A program made the translations under genes and the position numbers. From an uncultured Pelagibacteraceae bacterium (GTDB lineage: Bacteria; Pseudomonadota; Alphaproteobacteria; Pelagibacterales; Pelagibacteraceae): a stretch of 64,000 nt of DNA. How positions within the stretch are numbered: the first letter of the stretch is position 1; each line of letters opens with the position of its first letter. This document shows, in pieces, positions 13,904 to 45,115 of the stretch. A model generated the notes under the pieces. The model was not told the DNA's origin and did no database searches. It saw only the letters and a list, made by a program, of their open reading frames with translations. The stretch is taken from NCBI GenBank assembly GCA_902626645.1, contig CACOGC010000001.1:120001-184000 (forward strand). The letters are read 5' to 3'.

Positions 13904-14013
13904 AATCTATTTATATAGAGTAATTTAAATACAAAAAAGGCAATAAAAAGATGTTAAAAAAACAGATCAATTCTTAATAATTGACTTAATTCTTTTAACA
14001 GATAAAACCTTTT

Positions 14014-14158
14014 AATCGGGAGAGACTAATATTAGCGCCGAAGGAGCAACCACCCCGGAAACTCTCAGGCAAAAGGACCGATAAAGCATGACACTCTGGA
14101 AAGAGATTAATTTCCGCCGAAGGAGTAAAACTCTCAGGCAAAAAATACAGATGGGGCT
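14014..14158 (+). promoter_or_regulatory. Glycine riboswitch, tandem aptamers, upstream of glcB
   Basis: Two copies of the aptamer core: gcgccgaaggagcaaccacc...aaactctcaggcaaaaggaccg and cgccgaaggagtaaaactctcaggcaaaaaatacag, ending 15 nt before malate synthase ATG. Confidence 0.95.
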
Positions 14159-41170: not shown

Positions 41171-41302
41171 ATGGATTTTTTTTTGGTTTTAAAAATATCG
41201 TTTGTTATTGTAATGATGATCGCTCTATATGCGATAATTAGAAATTTAGATATTATAAAGATTATTTTAATTTACTTTAAAGATAAATTACTTGGAAAGT
41301 AA
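41171..41302 (+). CDS. Candidate 43-aa single-TM microprotein
   Basis: ATG ORF in the rmuC-hisG gap: MDFFLVLKISFVIVMMIALYAIIRNLDIIKIILIYFKDKLLGK; below the ORF-track length cutoff. Confidence 0.4.
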   Translation: MDFFLVLKISFVIVMMIALYAIIRNLDIIKIILIYFKDKLLGK

Positions 41303-41974
41303 TTTGATTAAATTGTTTAATCGCTTTTTCTTCACATTTTTTTTTGAGGATAAGATACAAGCTTGAGACCTTAAAATTTCACCATCCTTCAAAATACGTA
41401 GATTGTTTGCTTTGAGAGTTTCACCTGTGGATGTAATATCAGTAATCAATTCAGCAGATCCAGTAAAAGGATAAGCCTCAGTAGCTCCTAGACTTTCAAC
41501 TAACTTAAATTGTGTAACACCTTTTGAGAACAAAAAATCTTGTGTTAAATTTGGATATTTAGTTGCAACCCGAATTCTTTTTTTTTTAATATCTCTAAAT
41601 TCAAAAGCAATTTCCTCAAGATCAGCAATAGTCTGAACATCAATCCAAGGATCTGGAATTGCTACAACTAAATTTGCTCTTCCAAAATTAAGTTTTTTGG
41701 CTACATTTATTTTATTTTGGACGTTTATTCCACTTTCTTTTAATAAATCAAAACCAGAAAAACCAATATCTAAAGAGCTATCACCTAGTCTTTCAATAAT
41801 TTCTCTTGCATGTAGATATAAAATCTTAATATATGGTTTATTTTTAATTGATCCAATTAAATCTCTTTCGCCTCTTTCAGATATAATTCTTAATTTTTTT
41901 TTCTTAAAGATTTTTAAAACATCTGCCCTAAGCCGACCTTTGCTTGGAATACCTATATTGATTAAATTATCCAT
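41288..41974 (-). CDS. hisG: ATP phosphoribosyltransferase, short form
   Basis: ORF; GIPSKGRLR, DIGFSGFDLL, EAYPFTGSAELITDITSTGETLKANNL. Confidence 0.95.
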   Translation of the reverse strand: MDNLINIGIPSKGRLRADVLKIFKKKKLRIISERGERDLIGSIKNKPYIKILYLHAREIIERLGDSSLDIGFSGFDLLKESGINVQNKINVAKKLNFGRANLVVAIPDPWIDVQTIADLEEIAFEFRDIKKKRIRVATKYPNLTQDFLFSKGVTQFKLVESLGATEAYPFTGSAELITDITSTGETLKANNLRILKDGEILRSQACILSSKKNVKKKRLNNLIKLLSK

Positions 41975-41975
41975 T

Positions 41976-43028
41976 TTAATAAACTAAATTTAAAGCAGCA
42001 CCAACTGCTGGAGTTTGTTTTTTTGAACCAAGGTCGGAAATCAATTTGTCATATCGGCCGCCATTGCAACAATTAATAATTTTTGATTTGGACTTAATAT
42101 CTATTTTAAAAACCATACCCGTGTAATACTCAAGCTGTCTGCCAAAAGCAGCTGAAAAAATCACATTTAATTTATTAATTTTATCTTTTGAGATTGGAAA
42201 ATATCTCTGATCTACTAATAAATTTATTTTATATTTCTTGAAAAACTTATTTAATACCTTGGCTGCATTATTTATTGGACATTTAATTTTCAAAAACTCC
42301 TTAATAATTTTTGAAATATTTCTTCCTTTACTAGGTCTCCTTGGATCTTTAATCTTTTTATCAAATCTACTTAAAATTTCGTCAATTGTTCTATTTGCTA
42401 TAATGGTTGATTGATCATTTTTTAACATTCTAAAATATCTTTTTTTATCGATCTCAACTATTGTTGGATCAACATCTGAATTGGTCTCTAATCTTTTGAG
42501 AAGATCATCAAAATAATCTTCTCTCCAAAAATGTCTTGAAAGTCTTAATTTCCATCTTTTAGGAATATCTAATTTAGATATAAGAAGATTAAATATTTCT
42601 ACATTCCCAATTGTGATCTCACCAGATGAATAATCAAAATTTTTTAAACATTTTAATGAAGTATTTATTATTTCCTTATCATCATTTTTCTCATTTAGTG
42701 ACCCTATGATTTCAAAACCAACTTGATTTCTTACAATGGAGTCCTTTTTGTTTTCAGATTTACGATATGCTTGACCATTATAAAATATCTTCTCCTTGCC
42801 CTTTAGATTATTTTCTAAGTATCTAAGACAAGATACAATTGTTAGATCTGGCCTTAAACAAAGTTCATTTCCTCCTTGGTCAGTAAATGAGAAAATAAAT
42901 TTTCGAAAACTTTCACCAGATCTTTGTACGATATGGTTAGCCTCAATTACTGAGGGTAATTCAATATATTTAAAACCATTTGATTTAACAGTTTTAAGTA
43001 TGCTGTCAGATAAATTTTTTGATTTCAT
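41976..43028 (-). CDS. hisZ: ATP phosphoribosyltransferase regulatory subunit
   Basis: ORF; HisRS-paralog motifs LRPDLTIVSCLRY, YYTGMVF; adjacent to hisG. Confidence 0.92.
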   Translation of the reverse strand: MKSKNLSDSILKTVKSNGFKYIELPSVIEANHIVQRSGESFRKFIFSFTDQGGNELCLRPDLTIVSCLRYLENNLKGKEKIFYNGQAYRKSENKKDSIVRNQVGFEIIGSLNEKNDDKEIINTSLKCLKNFDYSSGEITIGNVEIFNLLISKLDIPKRWKLRLSRHFWREDYFDDLLKRLETNSDVDPTIVEIDKKRYFRMLKNDQSTIIANRTIDEILSRFDKKIKDPRRPSKGRNISKIIKEFLKIKCPINNAAKVLNKFFKKYKINLLVDQRYFPISKDKINKLNVIFSAAFGRQLEYYTGMVFKIDIKSKSKIINCCNGGRYDKLISDLGSKKQTPAVGAALNLVY

Positions 43029-44403
43029 TTACTAAATTTTCTTTTGAAAAGGTGATTTGATTATCTTCTCCCTTAACACCTAGGAGGTTCTTAAGTGTAA
43101 TTTTGTTATCTTTAAATTCATTTTCTCCACAAATAACTGCAATTGGGCACCCTCTTTTATTTGCATATGTCAGTTGTTTCCCAAGATTTTTCTTACTATC
43201 TAAAAAAATTTCTGAATTAATATTATTTTTTCTCAAGATATCTAAAATTTCGTAATAATTTTTTAAATATTTTTCATCCATTACGCAAACAATGACTGGT
43301 TTTTGATCATCTAATTGGACTTGATTTATTTGAGACATAGCAAACAAAAGTCTATCAACCCCGATGCTAACACCTGTTCCAGGTATATCGACACCTTTAA
43401 ATCTTGAAATTAACTTATTATATTGCCCACCAGAGCATACGCTGCCAATATCAATTTCTTTACCTTTGCTATTTGTTGTTTTAAAATTTAGATTTGTCTC
43501 AATACAAAAACCATCATAATACGCTAATCCTCTAACTATTGTGAAATTTGCTTTGACTAACTCAGAATAATTTCCAAAATCTAGAACCTCAAATAAATCC
43601 TCAAGCTCTTTAATCCCTTCTTGTGTAAGAGTATTTTTACAATCTTGTTTGAGTTTTTTTAAATCTTTAATTTTTAAAAAGTTTAAAATTTTTGAAACTT
43701 GATCATCATTTAGATCAGCTCCTTTAGTTACCGCACCGCTTTTATCTTTTCTCTCTTTTTTTAATAGATCTTCAACTCCTTTTATTCCAAAATCTGGTTT
43801 ATCTAATTTATCAATTGCTCTCATCACCTTGATCTCTTTATTTACAGGAATTTTTAGATCTTGAATTAAACCTTGTATAATCTTTCTATTACTTACATTA
43901 ATTGTAAATTGATCTTTTTTTAAACCACATTCAATTAGAGTACTTGCAACCAGATCACATAATTCAGCATTTGCTTGCGCTGGATTTACGTTGCCTACAA
44001 TATCACAATCGGCTTGAGTAAATTCTCTGAAACGTGCATTACCAGACTTTTCATTTCTAAATACATTTTGAATGGCGTATCTTTTATAAATTGATGGAAG
44101 TTTCTGATTATTTTGGGCAACAAATCTTGCTAAAGGACTGGAAAGATCGTATCGAAGAGTAATATTCTTTTCACCATCATTAAAAGAAAAAACATCAGAC
44201 ATAGGATTACTATCATCCTCTGCAAGAAAGGATCCTATATTTTCTGCAATTTCAAATGATGGGGTTTCTAAAGGATCGAAACCATATTTAATAAAATTAT
44301 TCTCAATGACTTTTAATAGTCTTTTTTTGAGAATTAATGTTTTATTCCACCTATCTTCAAAACCTGAAGGTAATCCAGGAATTAATTTATTTTTTTCACT
44401 CAT
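43006..44403 (-). CDS. hisS: Histidyl-tRNA synthetase (divergent alphaproteobacterial type)
   Basis: ORF trimmed to MSEKNKLIPGLPSGFEDRW; RYDLSSPLARFVA, RNEKSGNARFREFTQADCDIVG, VRGLAYYDGFCIE. Confidence 0.93.
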   Translation of the reverse strand: MSEKNKLIPGLPSGFEDRWNKTLILKKRLLKVIENNFIKYGFDPLETPSFEIAENIGSFLAEDDSNPMSDVFSFNDGEKNITLRYDLSSPLARFVAQNNQKLPSIYKRYAIQNVFRNEKSGNARFREFTQADCDIVGNVNPAQANAELCDLVASTLIECGLKKDQFTINVSNRKIIQGLIQDLKIPVNKEIKVMRAIDKLDKPDFGIKGVEDLLKKERKDKSGAVTKGADLNDDQVSKILNFLKIKDLKKLKQDCKNTLTQEGIKELEDLFEVLDFGNYSELVKANFTIVRGLAYYDGFCIETNLNFKTTNSKGKEIDIGSVCSGGQYNKLISRFKGVDIPGTGVSIGVDRLLFAMSQINQVQLDDQKPVIVCVMDEKYLKNYYEILDILRKNNINSEIFLDSKKNLGKQLTYANKRGCPIAVICGENEFKDNKITLKNLLGVKGEDNQITFSKENLVNEIKKFI

Positions 44404-44407
44404 TTTT

Positions 44408-44481
44408 TGGTACCTTGAGTAGGTTACGCTCCTACGACTTCGGATCCACAAACCGACGTGATACTATTTCACCATCAAGGC
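44408..44481 (-). tRNA. tRNA-His (GTG), divergent D- and T-loops, CCA encoded
   Basis: Minus strand GCCTTGA TG GTGA AATAGTA TCAC G TCGGT TTGTGGA TCCGA AGTC GTAGG AGCGTAA CCTAC TCAAGGT A CCA: acceptor, D and T stems pair fully; anticodon stem has one U-U at 31-39. Confidence 0.78.
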
Positions 44482-44521
44482 ATATCCTTTTTTGTTTTAT
44501 CTTATTTTGTTGTTATTTAAA

Positions 44522-44527: not shown

Positions 44528-44550
44528 ATATAAATGATTATTCGCTAGCT

Positions 44551-44652
44551 TTAGCCAGCATGGAAGTGAGCGTGCACAACTCTACTAGTTCCTTTAAGAG
44601 CTTTTCTTAAAGTACTTTTTGATGCTAATTTGTTTATCTCAAATTTTTTCAT
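44551..44652 (-). CDS. Candidate 33-aa small ORF, possible His-containing leader peptide
   Basis: ATG ORF MKKFEINKLASKSTLRKALKGTSRVVHAHFHAG; three His codons near the end; stop codon lies in a GCTGGC-TAAA-GCTAGC hairpin. Confidence 0.4.
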   Translation of the reverse strand: MKKFEINKLASKSTLRKALKGTSRVVHAHFHAG

Positions 44653-44694
44653 TGACAGCTTTTTAGACAAAAAAAACGATATTGCAACCCCTAA

Positions 44695-44733
44695 AAGAAA
44701 AAGGACGTATATCCACTAGTAGATATATCGCCC
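44695..44733 (-). terminator. Terminator downstream of cold shock gene
   Basis: Minus strand GGGCGATATATC...GATATACGTCC then TTTTT. Confidence 0.65.
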
Positions 44734-44752
44734 TTTTTATAATTTTAGAAAA

Positions 44753-44974
44753 TTAGTCTAATTTTTTTAAATTTACTGCTGAAGGGCCTTTGGGACCATC
44801 TTCAAGAGTAAATTCTATTTTATCACCCTCATTAAGATATCTCATGCCCGCTGCTTTAACTGCGCTTGCATGTACAAACGCATCTTTTTCTTTATCGTCT
44901 CTTTCGATAAAGCCGTAACCTTTTTTGCCGTTAAACCACTTTACTTTTCCTTGTATTGTACTCATCTTATTCAC
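44753..44974 (-). CDS. Cold shock protein
   Basis: [22 protein letters not shown]. Confidence 0.95.
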
Positions 44975-45040: not shown

Positions 45041-45115
45041 TGGTGCCTCGGGAAGGATTCGCACCTCCGACACAAGCCTTTTCAGGGCTCTGCTCTACTC
45101 CTGAGCTACCGAGGC
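45041..45115 (-). tRNA. tRNA-Phe (GAA), CCA encoded
   Basis: Minus strand GCCTCGG TA GCTC AGGAGTA GAGC A GAGCC CTGAAAA GGCTT GTGTC GGAGG TGCGAAT CCTTC CCGAGGC A CCA. Confidence 0.95.

Follow-up and report, generated by a model that had tools for sequence, protein, structure and literature searches.

A short open reading frame (ORF) that ends in histidine codons and is closed by a hairpin lies upstream of the tRNA-His gene in a genome of the SAR11 order and probably heads a single operon, tRNA-His-hisS-hisZ-hisG, all of whose members it would control together. The source genome is 1.1 Mb in size and AT-rich, and the 64,000-nucleotide stretch of it that was analysed is referred to below as the window. 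According to Pfam, all of the genes downstream of the leader are histidine related: hisS (positions 43006 to 44403, minus strand) encodes a histidyl-tRNA synthetase (HisRS) of 465 amino acids (PF13393 and PF03129); hisZ (41976 to 43028, minus strand), which overlaps hisS by 23 nt, encodes a HisRS paralogue that matches PF13393 only and is without the anticodon domain; and hisG (41288 to 41974, minus strand) encodes a short-form ATP phosphoribosyltransferase of 228 amino acids (PF01634). An earlier, sequence-only reading of this DNA had placed hisZ and hisG behind hisS on the same strand and had suggested that histidine biosynthesis might be coupled to the synthetase. Histidine biosynthesis is indeed part of the same gene run, and a link to the supply of histidine seems correct; the route, however, appears to be the leader ORF, which that reading did not see and which is too short for annotation. 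In place of the tRNA-shaped switch that had been proposed, the leader probably acts as the operon-wide sensor of histidine.

The leader ORF, first spotted in the upstream DNA of relatives and then tested, has 33 codons in the window (MKKFEINKLASKSTLRKALKGTSRVVHAHFHAG, followed by the stop codon; 44551 to 44652, minus strand) and sits between promoter P1 and the tRNA-His gene. Its peptide ends in VVHAHFHAG. The 230 nt upstream of the tRNA were examined in 144 Pelagibacteraceae loci, which are kin and not all independent (some genomes are in two collections), and a histidine-containing ORF ending at the hairpin was present in every one of the 144, with at least two histidine codons in 143. One, two, three, four, five, and six histidine codons were found in 1, 38, 61, 41, 2, and 1 loci, respectively; two leader types had just two. 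Leader length ranged from about 18 to 38 amino acids. The putative regulatory histidine codons were kept while the rest of the peptide drifted: CAT and CAC interchanged, the residues between the histidines varied (HAHFH, HTHIH, HTHNH, HNHYH, HSHFH, RHHFH, RHHTH, THRICFH, THRNSFH, and SHSHRMH), and the residues preceding the stop codon differed (HAG, HSL, HAGLQLAI, and HHHYHI). A pass over a shorter stretch, in which some long leaders were clipped, gave 97 distinct leader peptides.

Histidine accounts for 1.4% of the residues in the window's proteins. A leader of this kind in one genome would be weak evidence, because three histidines within eight residues were also seen in 11 of 568 random short ORFs from the window; its conservation is not weak evidence. 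When 800 kb of a closed relative (G062) was scanned, the leader was the only short intergenic ORF with a histidine cluster located before a gene. No T-box or known Rfam leader was found, and among Rfam models only the tRNA family matched.

The hairpin, UGCUGGC-UAAA-GCUAGCG (44543 to 44560, minus strand), abuts the last histidine codon and carries the leader stop codon in its loop. It was sought as the best GC-containing hairpin in the 230-nt stretch, without reference to the ORF, and in 144 of 144 loci it began at an offset of -2, 0, or +1 nt relative to where the last histidine codon ends. The arms covary. Thirteen distinct arm pairs were observed for the inner 6 bp (among them GCTGGC/GCTAGC, ATAGCC/GGCTAT, ATGGCT/AGCCAT, GCAAGC/GCTTGC, and CTAAGC/GCTTAG), and these were 100% paired, compared to 68% when arms were swapped between distinct pairs. 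In three leader types, RNAalifold predicted this hairpin with a probability close to 1 and detected no conserved competing antiterminator helix; a 10-bp AU-rich long-range pairing was predicted in one leader type only, and is weak and may be due to chance. The window scan returned 0 terminator-like sites after the leader, and the 8 nt following the stem contained 2 to 6 U residues across loci, with just 2 or 3 in 44 of the 144. Judged from these features, the hairpin is not a standard terminator.

A promoter, P1, appears to be positioned so that transcription would start at, or immediately beside, the leader ATG. Its -35-like element, TTGCAA (44682 to 44687, minus strand), lies exactly 35 nt before the ATG, and its -10-like element is TCTAAAAA (44660 to 44667, minus strand). 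Nearly all relatives have a TTGNAN-type element 35 nt before the leader ATG and a TCTAAA- or TTTAAA-like element near -10. Because this spacing puts the predicted start at the ATG, the transcript from which the leader would be translated is probably leaderless. There is probably also a second promoter, P2, before the tRNA. Its candidate -10-like element in the window, TAAGAT (44500 to 44505, within 1 to 2 nt, minus strand), lies about 19 to 24 nt before the tRNA, and a match to TAAGAT, TAATAT, or TAGTAT, mostly 19 to 23 nt upstream of the tRNA, was present in 142 of 144 loci, compared to 36 expected in shuffles. If P2 is a promoter, it would supply tRNA-His and hisS at a basal level beyond the control of the leader. 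Further upstream in the window are a cold-shock-like ORF (44753 to 44974, minus strand) with a strong U-tract terminator at about 44687 to 44735 and a tRNA-Phe gene (45041 to 45115, minus strand), which is directly before the leader in other genera. A tandem glycine riboswitch made up of two RF00504 aptamers is located elsewhere in the window (14007 to 14151, plus strand).

The leader was also found in a sister family (f2), as an 11-codon histidine leader directly before hisS with no tRNA between them. Examples are MFKFKHHHYHI, MLIIKHHHSHI, MFNFKHHTAHI, and MINKLIHHYHI, each followed by a stop codon and then by a hairpin, and the -35 element is at the same spacing from the leader AUG as in Pelagibacteraceae. 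The tRNA-His gene of the sister family is elsewhere, in tandem with tRNA-Phe. Comparison of the loci thus shows a conserved histidine ORF, a covarying hairpin at fixed geometry, and linkage of both to hisS in two families. Sampled loci from other Alphaproteobacteria with the same HisRS type (RRCH-type hisS) had neither the leader nor the tRNA linkage. Because the sister family keeps the leader without the tRNA, the leader seems to belong to hisS, and the tRNA to be a member added to the operon in Pelagibacteraceae. Sister-family loci (L254 to L266) also have a conserved AACCCC(C)T after the leader hairpin, and in many of them a second hairpin, GTATCA..TGATAC, precedes hisS.

The tRNA-His(GUG) gene (44408 to 44481, minus strand; 74 nt including an encoded CCA) was identified from sequence reading, from a 50.6-bit match to Rfam RF00005, and from its fold, and was missed by ARAGORN. 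G1 is at 44481, U72 at 44412, A73 at 44411, and CCA at 44410 to 44408. By the criteria described for the derived alphaproteobacterial tRNA-His identity set of SAR11 (PMC3937112, PMC4284800), it has G1:U72 and A73, no encoded G-1, and T at position -1, and it belongs to the G-1-less type of its lineage. The partner HisRS is also like that of the published pair, with Gly replacing Gln in the motif 2 loop (PMC3937112, PMC4284800). Unlike the published pair, alleles of the window type additionally are without G18G19 and the T54/Psi55/A58 consensus: the D loop is AAUAGUA, and the T loop is AGCGUAA rather than UUCRANY. The same loops occur in related alleles on other, compensated acceptor stems (GCCTTGG/CCAAGGT, GCTTTGG/CCAAAGT, and GCATTAG/CTAATGT). 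In the window, L038, L065, L066, L070, L077, and L100, deviant T loops (AGCGUAA, GGCAGAA, AGCAUAA, and AGAGUUA) were observed, most with a possible A54:U58 swap. Forty of 127 loci had deviant alleles with window-type loops, and automatic annotation may report such genomes as having no tRNA-His, because ARAGORN misses all 40.

A search for a second tRNA-His, which the sequence-only reading had suggested, found none in this assembly or in G062. The tRNA-His is the single one among the 28 tRNAs detected in this assembly, and the same allele is the sole tRNA-His of G062, where the tRNA set looks complete. As the cell has no other tRNA-His, this one should be a working tRNA and not a mimic, in spite of its aberrant elbow. 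The tRNA-His alleles appear to have been exchanged as whole units: L031 and L033 have flanks that are 87 to 97% identical and tRNAs that are 62% identical, the corresponding values for L061 and L128 are 96 to 100% and 83%, and L033 and L148 have 100% identical tRNAs and 76% identical hisS. The idea that allele swapping is peculiar to tRNA-His was rejected, as the neighbouring tRNA-Phe is equally diverse.

The tRNA is followed almost immediately by hisS. The minus strand reads ...GTAACCTACTCAAGGT-A-CCA-AAAA-ATG, so that a 4-nt AAAA spacer (44404 to 44407, minus strand) separates the CCA from the hisS start; minus-strand reading, Rfam, and Pfam all confirmed this arrangement as originally reported. 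The linkage of tRNA-His to hisS was kept throughout the family. In the 127 loci for which both tRNA-His and hisS were located, the spacing was largely conserved, with a gap of 4 nt in 99 and of 4 to 7 nt in 121, but it was 23 to 29 nt in the other 6. A small inverted repeat, for example AAGGCGGCTGGAGATGCCTT, is inserted between CCA and ATG in lineages with the longer spacers (L069, L071, L078, L099, and L100). There is no space for a promoter in the short gap, so tRNA-His and hisS are almost certainly cotranscribed, and 3' processing of the tRNA would leave a nearly leaderless hisS mRNA.

One possible explanation for the whole region, which we consider unlikely, is streamlining alone, in which SAR11 has deleted spacers, P2 transcribes tRNA-His and hisS constitutively, and nothing is regulated at the junction. 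The conserved P2 box fits this explanation, as do five more tRNAs of this genome that end 3 to 10 nt before same-strand genes (tRNA-Gln, +3; Leu-CAA, +4; a Met, +4; Pro, +5; and Leu-UAG, +10). Four of those genes encode, according to Pfam, a poly(A) polymerase/CCA-enzyme head domain, an AMP-binding enzyme, NDUS4, and trigger factor. Because similar junctions precede unrelated genes, the tightness of the tRNA-hisS junction is best regarded as ordinary SAR11 packing, and the 4-nt spacing was rejected as a special signal. However, streamlining accounts for the junction and not for the conserved histidine leader and covarying hairpin upstream of it. The neighbour 3 nt downstream of the tRNA-Gln gene (L211:1-80) carries the poly(A) polymerase/CCA-adding enzyme head domain, which makes this another instance of a tRNA abutting a tRNA-maturation gene.

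The E. coli thrS operator is a tRNA-shaped RNA directly upstream of a synthetase gene, and the sequence-only reading had proposed that the hisS ribosome binding site is similarly hidden by the fold of tRNA-His, whether or not HisRS is bound to it, which would allow autoregulation. The position of the tRNA-shaped RNA is alike in the two cases. The minimum free energy fold of the window's tRNA region is a cloverleaf, and the Shine-Dalgarno (SD)-like AAGG, 9 to 12 nt before the hisS ATG, is in the paired 3' strand of the acceptor stem, as had been noted; the short tRNA-hisS gap in 121 of 127 loci is also as such an operator would have it. The relatives were compared for both the spacing and the overlap of stem and SD, and although the spacing was mostly kept, the overlap was not: AAGG was present in 38 of the 127 loci and absent in 89, because the acceptor strand varies by allele (TCAAGG and CCAAGG carry AAGG; CCCGGG, CCAGGG, and CCAAAG do not). 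Use of SD sequences is also weak in the lineage, as SD-like motifs precede 2 of 56 window genes (2.3 expected) and 97 of 732 genes in 800 kb of G062 (45 expected). The view that SD sequences are wholly unused, which came from the 56 genes, was rejected because the 732 genes give a two-fold enrichment. Furthermore, six loci have 23- to 29-nt spacers, junctions of the same kind are found at unrelated genes, and the cell's only tRNA-His must be processed. Thus, whereas the thrS operator resembles a tRNA, the SAR11 element is a real and sole tRNA with no conserved SD to hide, and it seems very improbable that the tRNA acts as an operator for hisS. There is similarly little chance that the short ORF is a stand-alone gene for a histidine-rich microprotein (for example, a metal-binding one) with its own 3' hairpin and no regulatory role, because, although it has its own promoter, a hairpin near its end, and possibly a second promoter downstream, neither its length nor its sequence is kept outside the histidine codons, its C terminus differs, and two families retain it in front of hisS, one of them without the tRNA.

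For the histidine-sensing leader, a plausible sequence of events can be outlined, in which leader translation, histidine sensing, and the output step are all inferred from sequence, sensing with good support. The P1 transcript would start at or next to the leader AUG, and the last codons of the leader are mostly histidine. With charged tRNA-His plentiful, ribosomes would run through the leader and the hairpin could close; with charged tRNA-His scarce, a ribosome would wait at the last histidine codon and cover the 5' arm, and the hairpin would stay open. A closed hairpin would lower, and an open hairpin permit, passage of the P1 transcript into tRNA-His-hisS-hisZ-hisG, possibly through termination, pausing, or RNA decay. 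The substrate tRNA, its charging enzyme, and the first biosynthetic step would then rise together, with P2 beside the tRNA probably providing a basal level. That an open hairpin would raise expression of the operon when histidine is low is suggested by the logic of known amino acid leaders (PMC9413887, PMC2965389, PMC8632094). Some observations count against control by the leader: there is no U-tract terminator or conserved antiterminator, the conserved P2 box may allow the tRNA-hisS unit to escape, and two of the leader types have no more than two histidine codons. We suggest only tentatively that the leader is a stripped-down attenuator, free of terminator and antiterminator, in which a ribosome stalled on a leaderless ORF would directly open the abutting hairpin and the tRNA that is sensed would also be a product of the operon.

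Leaders with histidine codons are known from hisL of E. coli and Salmonella, from the his operons of Firmicutes (PMC9413887), and from the hisS*/hisZ leaders of bacilli (PMC2965389). They share with the SAR11 leader a short ORF with histidine codons, beside hairpins and upstream of histidine genes (PMC9413887, PMC2965389), and the leaders of bacilli, like that of SAR11, precede hisS/hisZ paralogues (PMC2965389). In contrast to them, the SAR11 operon begins with a tRNA gene, its leader is apparently leaderless and without similarity to Rfam models, and a single hairpin abuts the last histidine codon, with no conserved U-tract terminator or antiterminator. The Rhodobacterales leader uORFC-8-2, a Cys upstream ORF (uORF) before cysS, offers a further alphaproteobacterial example in which the uORF before an aminoacyl-tRNA synthetase gene contains codons for the amino acid of that synthetase; it differs in having Cys codons, an intrinsic terminator, and no tRNA gene in the operon (PMC8632094). 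A study of GC-IGRs in SAR11 strain HIMB5 reported 11 uORFs in intergenic regions, and no hisS leader is mentioned in the main text (PMC6429828); the leader described here may be among those 11. An earlier study of P. ubique left out intergenic regions that contain tRNAs (PMC2704228). No description of a SAR11 hisS leader was found in the main texts of the literature searched. The kind of leader is thus known, and the combination of a tRNA gene in the operon, a leaderless leader, and an abutting hairpin without a terminator appears to be new to those texts.

SAR11 bacteria rank among the most abundant bacteria on Earth and are known for their small number of transcription regulators. If the proposed control by the leader is correct, a single short RNA element would let these streamlined cells adjust both their translation apparatus and the synthesis of an amino acid. 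A tRNA gene controlled by a leader peptide would also be unusual, here in a stripped-down form with no obvious terminator.
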